From positions 1 to 36,206 of the forward strand of contig JAJQCV010000053.1 of NCBI GenBank assembly GCA_021202525.1: DNA of 36,206 bases, read 5' to 3'. This DNA is from Akkermansiaceae bacterium. GTDB taxonomy: Bacteria > Verrucomicrobiota > Verrucomicrobiia > Verrucomicrobiales > Akkermansiaceae. The notes below the pieces were generated by a model. It was given only the letters and a program-made list of their open reading frames with translations, searched no databases and was not told the DNA's origin. Positions 30,480-36,206 of the stretch are shown in pieces; within the stretch, counting starts at the first letter, position 1; each line of letters starts with the position of its first letter. Made by a program: the position numbers and the translations under genes.

Positions 30480-32708
30480 ATGATAACCATCCAGGATTTA
30501 TTTTGGCTCATCCCATCGGCTTCCGTGCTGGCCCTCGTTTTCGCGGGCGTGTTTTTTTACCGCATGAAGGCCCAGGATGAGGGGAACGAGGTCATGAGAA
30601 TGATCGCCAAGCATGTTCGCAGCGGTGCGATGGCCTACTTACGGCAGCAATACAAGATTGTTGCCATTTTTTTCGTGCTGATCACGGTCGTTTTCGCCTT
30701 TCTGGCTTACTGCCTGCACATTCAGAATCCCTGGGTGCCTTTCGCGTTTATTTCCGGCGGCTTTTTCTCCGGCCTTGCCGGGTATATCGGCATGAAGACG
30801 GCCACGTACGCTTCCGGCCGCGTGGCGAACGCCTGTCGCCATTCCCTGGACGCCGGCCTCCAGATCGCCTTCCGTTCCGGAGCCGTTCTCGGCCTGACCG
30901 TGGTGGGCCTCGCCATGCTGGACATCGGCGCCTGGTACTGGATTCTGGACTGGTTTTATGAGGACATGGAGCTTTCCACCCGCCTGGTGGTGATCACCAC
31001 GACGATGCTGACCTTCGGCATGGGCGCCTCCCTTCAGGCCCTGTTCGCCCGCGTGGGCGGCGGCATTTTTACAAAGGCTGCGGACGTAGGCGCGGACCTG
31101 GTGGGCAAGGTGGAAGCGGGCATTCCTGAAGACGACCCCCGCAACCCCGCCACCATCGCGGATAACGTGGGCGACAACGTGGGCGACGTGGCCGGCATGG
31201 GCGCGGACCTTTACGAGTCCTATTGCGGTTCCATCCTGGCTTCCGCCGCCCTGGGCGCGGCGGCCTACATAGCCGTGCCGGACATGGCGATCAAGGCCGT
31301 TCTCACTCCCATGCTGATTGCCGCCCTCGGCACCATCCTTTCACTTCTGGGCGTGTATGCGGTGCGCGTGAAGCGCGGCGCTTCCCAGACGGAACTGATG
31401 GCCGCCCTGAACCGCGGCATCAACCTCAGCTCCTTCCTGATCGCCATTGCCTCCGCCTTCCTGCTCCAGCTCATCGGGCTGGACAACTGGGCCGGCATCT
31501 GGGGCGCGATCGTGACCGGCCTGGCGGTGGGCATCATCATCGGAAAGAGCACGGAGCATTACACCTCCCATGATTCCTACCCCTGCCGCAAGATCGCCCA
31601 CAGCGCGAAGACCGGCCCCGCCACCGTCATCATTTCCGGCATCGGCATCGGCATGATTTCCACCTGCATTCCCGTAATTACGATTGTGGTGGGCACTGTC
31701 CTGGCCTACGGCATGGCCTCCGGGGACTGGCATTTCACCGGGGCCGAGATGAGCAAGGGCCTGTACGGCATCGGCATCGCCGCCGTGGGGATGCTTTCCA
31801 CGCTGGGCCTGACGCTGGCTACGGACGCCTACGGTCCCATTTCCGACAACGCCGGGGGCAATGCGGAGATGAGCAAGCTGGACCCGGAAGTGCGCCGCCG
31901 CACGGATGCCCTGGACGCCCTGGGCAATACGACGGCCGCCACGGGCAAGGGATTCGCCATCGGCTCCGCCGCCTTGACCGCCCTGGCCCTGCTGGCTTCC
32001 TATATTGAGGAACTGAAGATTTCCATCCTGCACTGGAGCGAGGCCACTGGAAATACCATGTACAAGATCAATGACGCCGTGAGCGTGGAGGTGTCCAAAA
32101 TCACCACCTGCACCCTGTCCGAGTTCATGGGCTATTTCCAGGTGACCCTGATGAACCCGAAAGTGCTCATGGGGCTGTTCGTGGGCGCCATGATGTCCTT
32201 CCTGTTCTGCGGCTTGACCATGAACGCCGTGGGCCGTGCCGCTGAAAAGATGGTGAAGGAAGTGCGCCGCCAGTTCAAGGAAATCAAGGGCATCCTGACC
32301 GGGGAGGCGGAACCGGATTACGTGCGCTGTGTGGAGATTTCCACGGCGGGCGCCCAGCATGAAATGATCTGGCCGTCCATCCTGGCGGTGATTACTCCCA
32401 TTTGCATGGGGCTGGTGTTCGGCGTTCCCGGCGTGTTCGGCCTGCTGGCCGGCGGCCTGGCCTCCGGCTTCGTCCTGGCCGTGTTTATGGCGAATTCCGG
32501 CGGCGCGTGGGACAATGCCAAGAAGTACATTGAGCAGGGCCATGTGGGCGGCAAGGGCTCGGAAAGCCACAAGGCCGCCGTCATCGGCGATACGGTGGGC
32601 GACCCCTTCAAGGATACGTCCGGTCCCTCCCTGAATATCCTGATCAAGCTGATGAGCATGGTGGCCATCGTCACCGCCGGCGTCAACATCGCCGTGACCC
32701 TGTTCTAA
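30480..32708 (+). CDS. hppA: Membrane-bound ion-translocating pyrophosphatase, K+-dependent type (probably Na+-pumping)
   Basis: 742 aa, about 16 transmembrane helices. It couples hydrolysis of cytosolic pyrophosphate to export of Na+ and/or H+. The catalytic loops are intact: [46 protein letters not shown] in the first half, [40 protein letters not shown] in the middle, and [12 protein letters not shown] through [20 protein letters not shown] at the end. In the subtype-defining motif the residue is Ala (A486 in [10 protein letters not shown]), not Lys, marking the K+-dependent class, most of whose members pump Na+. The start is ATG 30480, just downstream of the palindrome. The gene is monocistronic and ended by a terminator. 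Confidence 0.95.
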
Positions 32709-33430: not shown

Positions 33431-33459
33431 TTGACAAGGGCGGGGGAGAGGAGTAATAA
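33431..33459 (+). promoter_or_regulatory. Promoter of the trp operon
   Basis: TTGACA (33431-33436), 17-nt spacer, TAATAA (33454-33459): the best promoter match in the window. The predicted start is near 33466, two bases before the leader-peptide ATG. Confidence 0.75.
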
Positions 33460-33467
33460 ACGCGCAG

Positions 33468-33575
33468 ATGCCATTCAGCACAGTACAGCCCTTTTTTAGC
33501 AATACCCGTTATTACGGCAACGGGTATTGGTGGCGTGTACCCATGTCCGGACGGGGGAATCCCGATGTGCAGTAG
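33468..33575 (+). CDS. trpL: Tryptophan operon leader peptide
   Basis: A 35-codon frame (ATG 33468, TAG 33573-33575) lies between the promoter and an intrinsic terminator ahead of trpE. It is rich in aromatic residues: Phe-Phe at 9-10, Tyr-Tyr at 15-16, and Tyr-Trp-Trp at 20-22 (Trp codons 33528-33533). Two adjacent Trp codons in a short frame ahead of a terminator and trpE are the hallmark of ribosome-mediated attenuation: scarcity of charged tRNA-Trp would stall the ribosome there and change downstream pairing. The ATG is almost at the predicted transcription start, so translation would be leaderless. Frame, composition and position are seen directly; the regulatory role is inferred. Confidence 0.75.
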   Translation: MPFSTVQPFFSNTRYYGNGYWWRVPMSGRGNPDVQ

Positions 33576-33641
33576 TGGCGTTCAGCTATGATAATTTTCT
33601 AGAACTGCTTTGATTCCTCCGAGAGTCAAAGCAGTTTTTTT
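33500..33641 (+). promoter_or_regulatory. trp attenuator region: pause hairpin, alternative pairings and terminator
   Basis: A perfect 11-bp hairpin (33500-33510 with 33519-33529) ends at the first Trp codon and could act as the pause structure. The terminator is a perfect 11-bp stem (33603-33613 with 33626-33636), 12-nt loop and T-rich tail to 33641. A modest antiterminator is possible between GCAGT at 33569-33573, at the leader stop codon, and ACTGC at 33604-33608 in the left terminator arm. A ribosome at the stop codon would mask it, while one stalled at the Trp codons would leave it free. The antiterminator is short, so this pairing is the least certain part. Confidence 0.65.
33603..33641 (+). 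terminator. Intrinsic terminator of the trp attenuator
   Basis: A perfect 11-bp stem (33603-33613 with 33626-33636), 12-nt loop, and a run of seven T at 33635-33641. It lies 27 nt upstream of the trpE start and 27 nt downstream of the leader-peptide stop, so it controls entry into the operon rather than ending a gene. Confidence 0.85.
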
Positions 33642-33668
33642 ATTTTCAACTTACACAATGATCCATCC

Positions 33669-35058
<1,390 letters not shown>

Positions 35059-35075
<17 letters not shown>

Positions 35076-36206
35076 CAATTACGATTCCTTCTCGTGGAAT
35101 CTGGTGCAGGCGTTTTATTCCCTGGGCCGCAAGCCCGTGGTGTACGCGAACGACGATCCGCGCATTCTGGACCTGGCAACCAGCCCGGAACTGGAAGCCG
35201 TGTGCATTTCCCCCGGCCCCAGCCATCCGCGCAACGCGGGGCTTTGCCTGGAGTTCCTGAAGCGCCTTCCCGCCGCCGTTCCCGTGCTGGGCGTGTGCCT
35301 GGGCCACCAGCTCCTGGGTTATTTTGCCGGGGCGGAGGTGTCCCGCGCCCCGTACGTGATGCACGGCAAGAGCTCGGACATCATCCACGACGGCGCCGGA
35401 CTGTTCACCGGGCTTCCCAACCCCATGACCGTGGGCCGCTACCATTCCCTGGTGGTCCAGTCCAAGGAGGACGAGCCGAATCCCCGGTTCACCGTCACTT
35501 CCCGCGGTCCGGAAGGGGAGGTCATGGCGCTGCGCTACAACGACCGCCCGTGGGTGGGCATCCAGTTCCATCCGGAATCCATCCTGACGCCGGACGGCCT
35601 CCAGCTTCTGGGCAATTTCCCGGACAACATCGTTCCCGCGGGCCAGAAGGAGAAGCGGATCAACCGCATTCTGGATACGCTGGCCGCCGGGCAGGATCTG
35701 ACGGCGGACATGGCCGCCGCCGGTTTTGCGGATATCATGGACGGCCGCATGACGCCGGCCCAGGCGGGCTGCTTCCTGATGGGCCTGCGCATGAAGGGGG
35801 AAACCCCGTTGGAAATGGCCCACGCCGTGGGCATCGCCCTGGGCCGCGCCAACCGCGTGGAAGGGCTGGAAGGCGACTGCATCGACGTAGTCGGCACGGG
35901 CGGCGACGGCCGCAGCTCCTTCAACTGCTCCACCGCCACGTCCCTGACGCTGGCGGGCATGGGCTACAAGGTGGTGAAGCACGGCAACCGCGCGGTGTCC
36001 TCCTCCTGCGGGTCCGCGGATGCTCTGGAAGGGCTGGGATTCCCGCTGGACGTGGCTCCGGAGGACGTGCAGCACCTGCTGGACGAACGGAATTTCGCCT
36101 TCCTGTTCGCGCCGAATTTCCATCCCGCCTTCCGCAACGTGGGGCCCATCCGCAGGGAACTGGGAATCCGCACCCTGTTCAATCTGCTGGGCCCCCTGAT
36201 CAACCC
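35059..36206 (+). CDS. trpGD: Fused anthranilate synthase glutaminase (TrpG) and anthranilate phosphoribosyltransferase (TrpD), 3' truncated by window end
   Basis: An uninterrupted frame of 382 codons runs off the window. Residues 1-190: class I glutamine amidotransferase beginning MFLFIDNYDSFSWNLVQAF, with CISPGPSHP, nucleophile Cys80 in LGVCLGHQLLG and the catalytic His in GIQFHPES; it supplies ammonia to TrpE. Residues from about 200: TrpD, which joins anthranilate to PRPP, with the PRPP loop VVGTGGDGRSSFNCSTATS and KHGNRAVSSSCGSADALEGLG. The fusion resembles E. coli TrpGD and arises in several lineages. The gene overlaps trpE by 17 nt, ensuring coupled synthesis of the two anthranilate synthase subunits. 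About 150 further residues are expected beyond the edge. Confidence 0.95.

Follow-up and report, generated by a model that had tools for sequence, protein, structure and literature searches.

A putative ribosome-mediated trp attenuator of Akkermansia, predicted to be leaderless and probably acquired together with trpE-trpGD from a relative of the Desulfovibrionaceae

Introduction

The trp attenuator of E. coli is built on a Shine-Dalgarno-led leader of 14 amino acids, in which tandem Trp codons, an antiterminator opposed to a terminator, and a leader stop lying near segment 2 are combined with a 1:2 hairpin that acts in pausing and protection. Leaderless trp leaders have also been described. 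In S. meliloti, the message of trpL (rnTrpL) starts at the ATG, and trpE(G) is under ribosome-mediated attenuation with a Trp leader peptide and a terminator before trpE (PMC7298713). The trpL1 leader of Streptomyces lividans is likewise leaderless and has a WWW motif and a Rho-independent terminator before trpE (PMC8079986). The Akkermansia attenuator described here shares with that of E. coli the tandem Trp codons, the antiterminator opposed to a terminator, and the leader stop near segment 2, and it resembles the other two in the features listed, its leaderless start being predicted. However, the leader peptide of S. meliloti has 14 aa and comes from a different phylum (PMC7298713), and that of S. 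lividans has 18 aa and precedes a monocistronic trpE in Actinobacteria (PMC8079986).

No published trp attenuation in Akkermansia or Verrucomicrobia was found in the literature we searched, and within that literature the present one appears to be the first trp attenuator described in Verrucomicrobiota. Its host is a gut bacterium that has been the subject of much study. The attenuator is ordinary in kind but unexpected in its history, as neither leaderless mRNA nor a leaderless trp leader is new in kind.

Results

We analyzed a 36,206-nt stretch of DNA (the window) whose genome belongs to Akkermansia, its TrpE being up to 96% identical to entries carrying that genus name. The features upstream of trpE (Table 1) very probably form a ribosome-mediated trp attenuator, predicted to be leaderless and probably acquired with trpE-trpGD from a Desulfovibrionaceae relative. 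Ribosome-mediated attenuation, which the earlier note had proposed, is strongly supported by the recurrence of tandem Trp codons, terminator, and antiterminator in the genus.

Table 1. Features of the trp locus in the window
Feature	Position	Strand	Details
Sigma-70-type promoter	33431..33459	+	TTGACA 33431-33436, 17-nt spacer, TAATAA 33454-33459
trp leader ORF, predicted leaderless	33468..33575	+	35 aa + TAG; stop TAG 33573-33575
Hairpin CAATACCCGTT/AACGGGTATTG, tentative RNA polymerase pause hairpin	33500..33529	+	z -4.3 in the window
Segment 2, antiterminator 5′ side	33552..33573	+	CGGGGGAATC 33552-33561 + GCAGT 33569-33573; within the end of the leader ORF
Intrinsic terminator	33602..33640	+	15-bp stem 33602-33637, then T run
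trpE, anthranilate synthase component I	33669..35075	+	Pfam Anth_synt_I_N + Chorismate_bind; Desulfovibrionaceae-like by tree
trpGD fusion, glutamine amidotransferase + anthranilate phosphoribosyltransferase	35059..36206	+	Pfam; overlaps the end of trpE, truncated at the window boundary

The aromatic-rich frame of 35 codons with tandem Trp, first noticed in the earlier note, was confirmed as an ORF encoding MPFSTVQPFFSNTRYYGNGYWWRVPMSGRGNPDVQ, with the tandem Trp codons at 33528-33530 and 33531-33533. Our genus sample comprised 76 genomes, 35 of which had trpE, and 30 leaders were analyzed for structure. A Trp-rich leader ORF was found upstream of trpE in 34 of the 35 congeners, and a terminator in all 30 leaders, so both the Trp codons and the terminator are conserved among relatives. 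The one exception, L012, lacks a leader; immediately upstream of trpE it carries a tRNA-Ala gene together with a hairpin resembling a terminator (L012:1343-1415). The Trp motif varies by clade (WW, WWW, WRWR, WSWR, WYWYRH, and WAWGWYW), and the peptide sequences are strongly divergent between clades with the spacing preserved, the first Trp codon lying 48 to 63 nt from the ATG in 30/30 leaders. Of the aromatic pairs pointed out earlier, only tandem or near-tandem Trp proved universal in the congeners' leaders; Phe-Phe was confined to leaders of the A. muciniphila-like clade. A comparison of eight near relatives gave a pN/pS of 0.44 in the leader frame versus 2.6 to 3.0 in the other two frames, indicating that the leader frame is selected as protein.

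Both the promoter and a predicted start two bases before the leader ATG, as described previously, could be read in the window. No other promoter in the 110 nt preceding the leader ATG scored as well, its TAATAA lacks the usual last T of a -10 element, and a gap of 8 nt separates it from the ATG (33468-33470). The predicted +1, approximately A33466, is a canonical start (C-1/A+1). When the 30 leaders were searched over a region reaching from 110 nt upstream to 20 nt into the ORF, the best sigma-70-like promoter ended 7 to 10 nt before the ATG, usually 8, in 27 of them, which predicts a 5′ UTR of 0 to 4 nt for these leaders; promoter evidence was weak in L005, L006, and L041. As a background sample we used twenty 20-kb stretches (400 kb) of a close congener with 99% TrpE identity, where an equally good promoter 7 to 9 nt upstream was present at 0.26% of 14,409 ATGs. 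The trp leader was the sole short ORF in this sample with such a promoter and a terminator after it, and no second leaderless attenuator was found in the twenty stretches.

A 5′ UTR of ordinary length would nevertheless arise if transcription started further upstream, with GGAGAGGAG (33445-33453) acting as a Shine-Dalgarno sequence at the long spacing of 14 nt. Most members of the A. muciniphila-like clade retain a GGAGG-like sequence, with a hybrid energy of -5.9. However, GGAGAGGAG sits within the promoter spacer, a GGAG likewise falls inside the promoter in the window's clade, and many of the other Akkermansia leaders show weak Shine-Dalgarno pairing, leaders to which the promoter 7 to 10 nt before the ATG is common; we therefore consider this alternative unlikely. 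A leaderless start of the trp leader mRNA is thus predicted, with good support from the promoter position across the genus. Leaderless initiation also suits the organism, since a promoter-then-ATG pattern had 154 matches genome-wide versus 51 for a reversed-pattern control, and a Cappable-seq study of A. muciniphila found 10% of start sites to be leaderless versus 0.4% in E. coli (PMC4782308). With approximately 10% of A. muciniphila start sites leaderless and leaderless trpL known elsewhere, such a start is less exceptional than the earlier note supposed.

The perfect terminator reported between the leader stop and trpE was also recovered (Table 1). Its 5′ arm and loop constitute segment 3 (ACTGC at 33604-33608 and GATTCCTCCG at 33612-33621), which it has in common with an antiterminator, the part that the earlier note did not name and that was found here. 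In the window, CGGGGGAATC pairs with GATTCCTCCG, and GCAGT pairs with ACTGC in a second helix, giving a fold energy of -23.8 kcal/mol while the 3′ arm of the terminator is still to be transcribed; the whole leader fold has a z of -6.05 against dinucleotide shuffles. We folded the RNA beyond a ribosome placed at the Trp codons, leaving out the terminator 3′ arm, and found that 30/30 leaders were able to form an antiterminator. Segment 2 begins 78 to 90 nt after the ATG in these leaders, at a near-fixed distance from the Trp codons, and the terminator lies approximately 118 to 149 nt from the ATG. Antiterminator pairing exceeded that of dinucleotide shuffles with a mean z of -2.8 over 27 leaders, which are related and do not amount to 27 independent tests.

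Between clades, the antiterminator helix changes on both sides, as in CGGGGGAAUC/GAUUCCUCCG, CGGGAAGC/GCUUCCCG, CCGGUUGCC/GGCACCGG, and GGGGAUC/GGUCCCC, and pairing is kept, for example, when AAUC/GAUU becomes AAGC/GCUU. This covariation is based on the individual fold of each sequence; a count of antiterminator pairs by MAFFT columns was rejected as proof of covariation because the alignment is out of register between clades.

An antiterminator could in principle work without ribosome stalling, through binding of a protein or a tRNA (TRAP-like or T-box), with the ORF being incidental. Even when folded without a ribosome, most leaders form the antiterminator as long as the 3′ arm of the terminator is still missing, as this alternative would have it. 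It is nonetheless very improbable, given the Trp-rich ORF in 34/35 genomes, the purifying selection on its frame, the near-fixed distance from the Trp codons to segment 2, and the lack of a T-box or other Rfam match. The window and eight related loci gave no Rfam match at the gathering score, including to Trp_leader, and at E values up to 10 there were chance matches only, with nothing relevant. Even less credible is a constitutive terminator of an upstream transcript, with the leader ORF and antiterminator being coincidental. The terminator is indeed strong and lies between genes, but the locus has its own promoter, and the coding constraint and the antiterminator are seen across the genus.

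These observations favor ribosome-mediated attenuation, and in the window a fold with the ribosome at the stop codon hid segment 2 and let the terminator alone form. The extent of masking differs by clade. The stop lies 21 to 26 nt after segment 2 begins in the A. muciniphila-like clade, where masking is full or nearly so, and 3 to 11 nt before segment 2 in the other clades, where masking is partial. In the L008, L010, L013, and L014 groups (stop 7 to 11 nt before segment 2), a large part of the antiterminator is still present when the leader is folded with a ribosome at the stop; with segment 2 only partly covered, termination in these groups needs more than simple masking. Segment 2 was sequestered upstream, wholly or partly, in only 4/30 folds without a ribosome; a 1:2 protector like that of E. 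coli is thus not predicted in most Akkermansia leaders and does not seem to be general among them.

The window has a strong form of the hairpin that was said to end at the first Trp codon: 33500-33510 pairs with 33519-33529 in an 11-bp stem extending into that codon (33528), but it is imperfect even in near relatives. Its mean z across 18 leaders was -1.2, and it is weak in several relatives. It may be a polymerase pause signal.

The earlier note placed the attenuator in an apparent verrucomicrobial lineage. It is unlikely to be native there, as both trpE and the attenuator have their closest relatives in the Desulfovibrionaceae, sulphate-reducing bacteria of the gut. The nearest TrpE proteins outside Akkermansia belong to this family (identities reaching 60% across almost the whole protein), whereas those of other Verrucomicrobiales are approximately 42 to 43% identical over the full length and reach 55% over the C-terminal part only. 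In a maximum-likelihood tree, Akkermansia TrpE is nested in the Desulfovibrionaceae (support 100/98) with a sister clade that includes Mailhella (100/98), and the other Verrucomicrobiales form a separate clade. The trpGD fusion of Akkermansia is common to the sister Desulfovibrionaceae, with 62 to 65% identity; other Verrucomicrobiales have trpG and trpD as separate genes, with 38 to 49% identity. Transfer of the trp genes from Desulfovibrionaceae to Akkermansia is thus well supported by phylogeny and gene arrangement.

Putative attenuators are also present in the Desulfovibrionaceae (L119-L122, L126, L131, L134, L138, and L154), where a Trp-rich (WWW) leader, a G-rich antiterminator segment 2, and a terminator are positioned as in Akkermansia. 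Unlike in Akkermansia, their promoter is mostly 30 to 70 nt upstream of the leader, giving a 5′ UTR of that length, usually with a Shine-Dalgarno sequence. In two of the Desulfovibrionaceae leaders, L124 and L131, the promoter is 6 to 8 nt from the leader ATG and they look leaderless, so that changes in either direction, and more than one of them, are conceivable. An nhmmer search with a profile of the Akkermansia leader against the other loci gave no significant DNA match to the Desulfovibrionaceae leaders, and homology of the attenuators is therefore deduced from position, architecture, and gene phylogeny.

The same lack of DNA similarity would be expected if the attenuator were native to Verrucomicrobiota or had evolved afresh in Akkermansia once the genes had been acquired. 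However, no comparable Trp leader upstream of trpE was recognized in 24 other Verrucomicrobiales loci, and the Desulfovibrionaceae share the WWW leader, the G-rich segment 2, and the position of the terminator, making such an origin quite improbable. Transfer of the attenuator along with the trp genes is likely.

In several deeper Desulfovibrionales, a WWWR leader forms the C-terminal tail of an upstream ORF, with an antiterminator and a terminator just after it. Such tail-type leaders were found upstream of trpE in L113-L115, L128, L137, L139, L148, L149, L151, and L153, and the upstream ORF in L137 (L137:2045-2890) is a prephenate dehydrogenase (TyrA) by Pfam. Judged by sequence, these would be attenuators whose leader codons form the close of a full-length gene. 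In the Akkermansia window, the nearest recognizable upstream gene encodes a membrane H+-pyrophosphatase (H_PPase; 30480-32708), which is not of the aromatic pathway.

Discussion

We propose that the attenuator senses charged tRNA-Trp and controls trpE-trpGD as follows. Transcription would begin 0 to 4 nt before the leader ATG, and the ribosome would load directly on the 5′ end of the RNA, with no need for a Shine-Dalgarno sequence. When tryptophan is scarce, it would stall at the tandem Trp codons approximately 60 nt in, leaving segment 2, which starts just past the stalled ribosome, free to pair with the terminator 5′ arm and loop before the 3′ arm is made; with the antiterminator formed, RNA polymerase could enter trpE. 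When tryptophan is plentiful, the ribosome would reach the leader stop and cover segment 2 wholly or partly, and the terminator would form. Because most leaders have no predicted protector hairpin between segments 1 and 2, this would mainly be a two-state switch.

As for its history, trpE, the fused trpGD, and the attenuator would have entered an ancestor of Akkermansia from a Desulfovibrionaceae relative, and a leader with a longer UTR would have become leaderless in Akkermansia. The full scenario, in which the operon crossed phyla with its attenuator and the leader went from Shine-Dalgarno-led to leaderless in a lineage rich in leaderless mRNAs and stayed so through the radiation of the genus, the switch remaining functional, mostly without a 1:2 protector, is slightly favored by the present comparisons. 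It suggests that a cis-acting, coupling-dependent regulator can function after transfer between phyla. Leaders in the tail of an upstream gene, free leaders with a Shine-Dalgarno sequence, and leaderless leaders make up a natural series that is useful for studying how ribosome loading and transcription-translation coupling set the timing of an attenuator.

Some minor observations concern trpE itself. Its ATG has no evident Shine-Dalgarno sequence upstream (window 33640-33669). No trpE match at an E value of ≤1e-100 was obtained in 41/76 genomes of the genus, many of them >90% complete, and these Akkermansia are probably tryptophan auxotrophs. The TrpE matches in L009, L016, and L043 span one in-frame stop (TGA or TAA), which may lie at the C-terminal end or be an assembly error.
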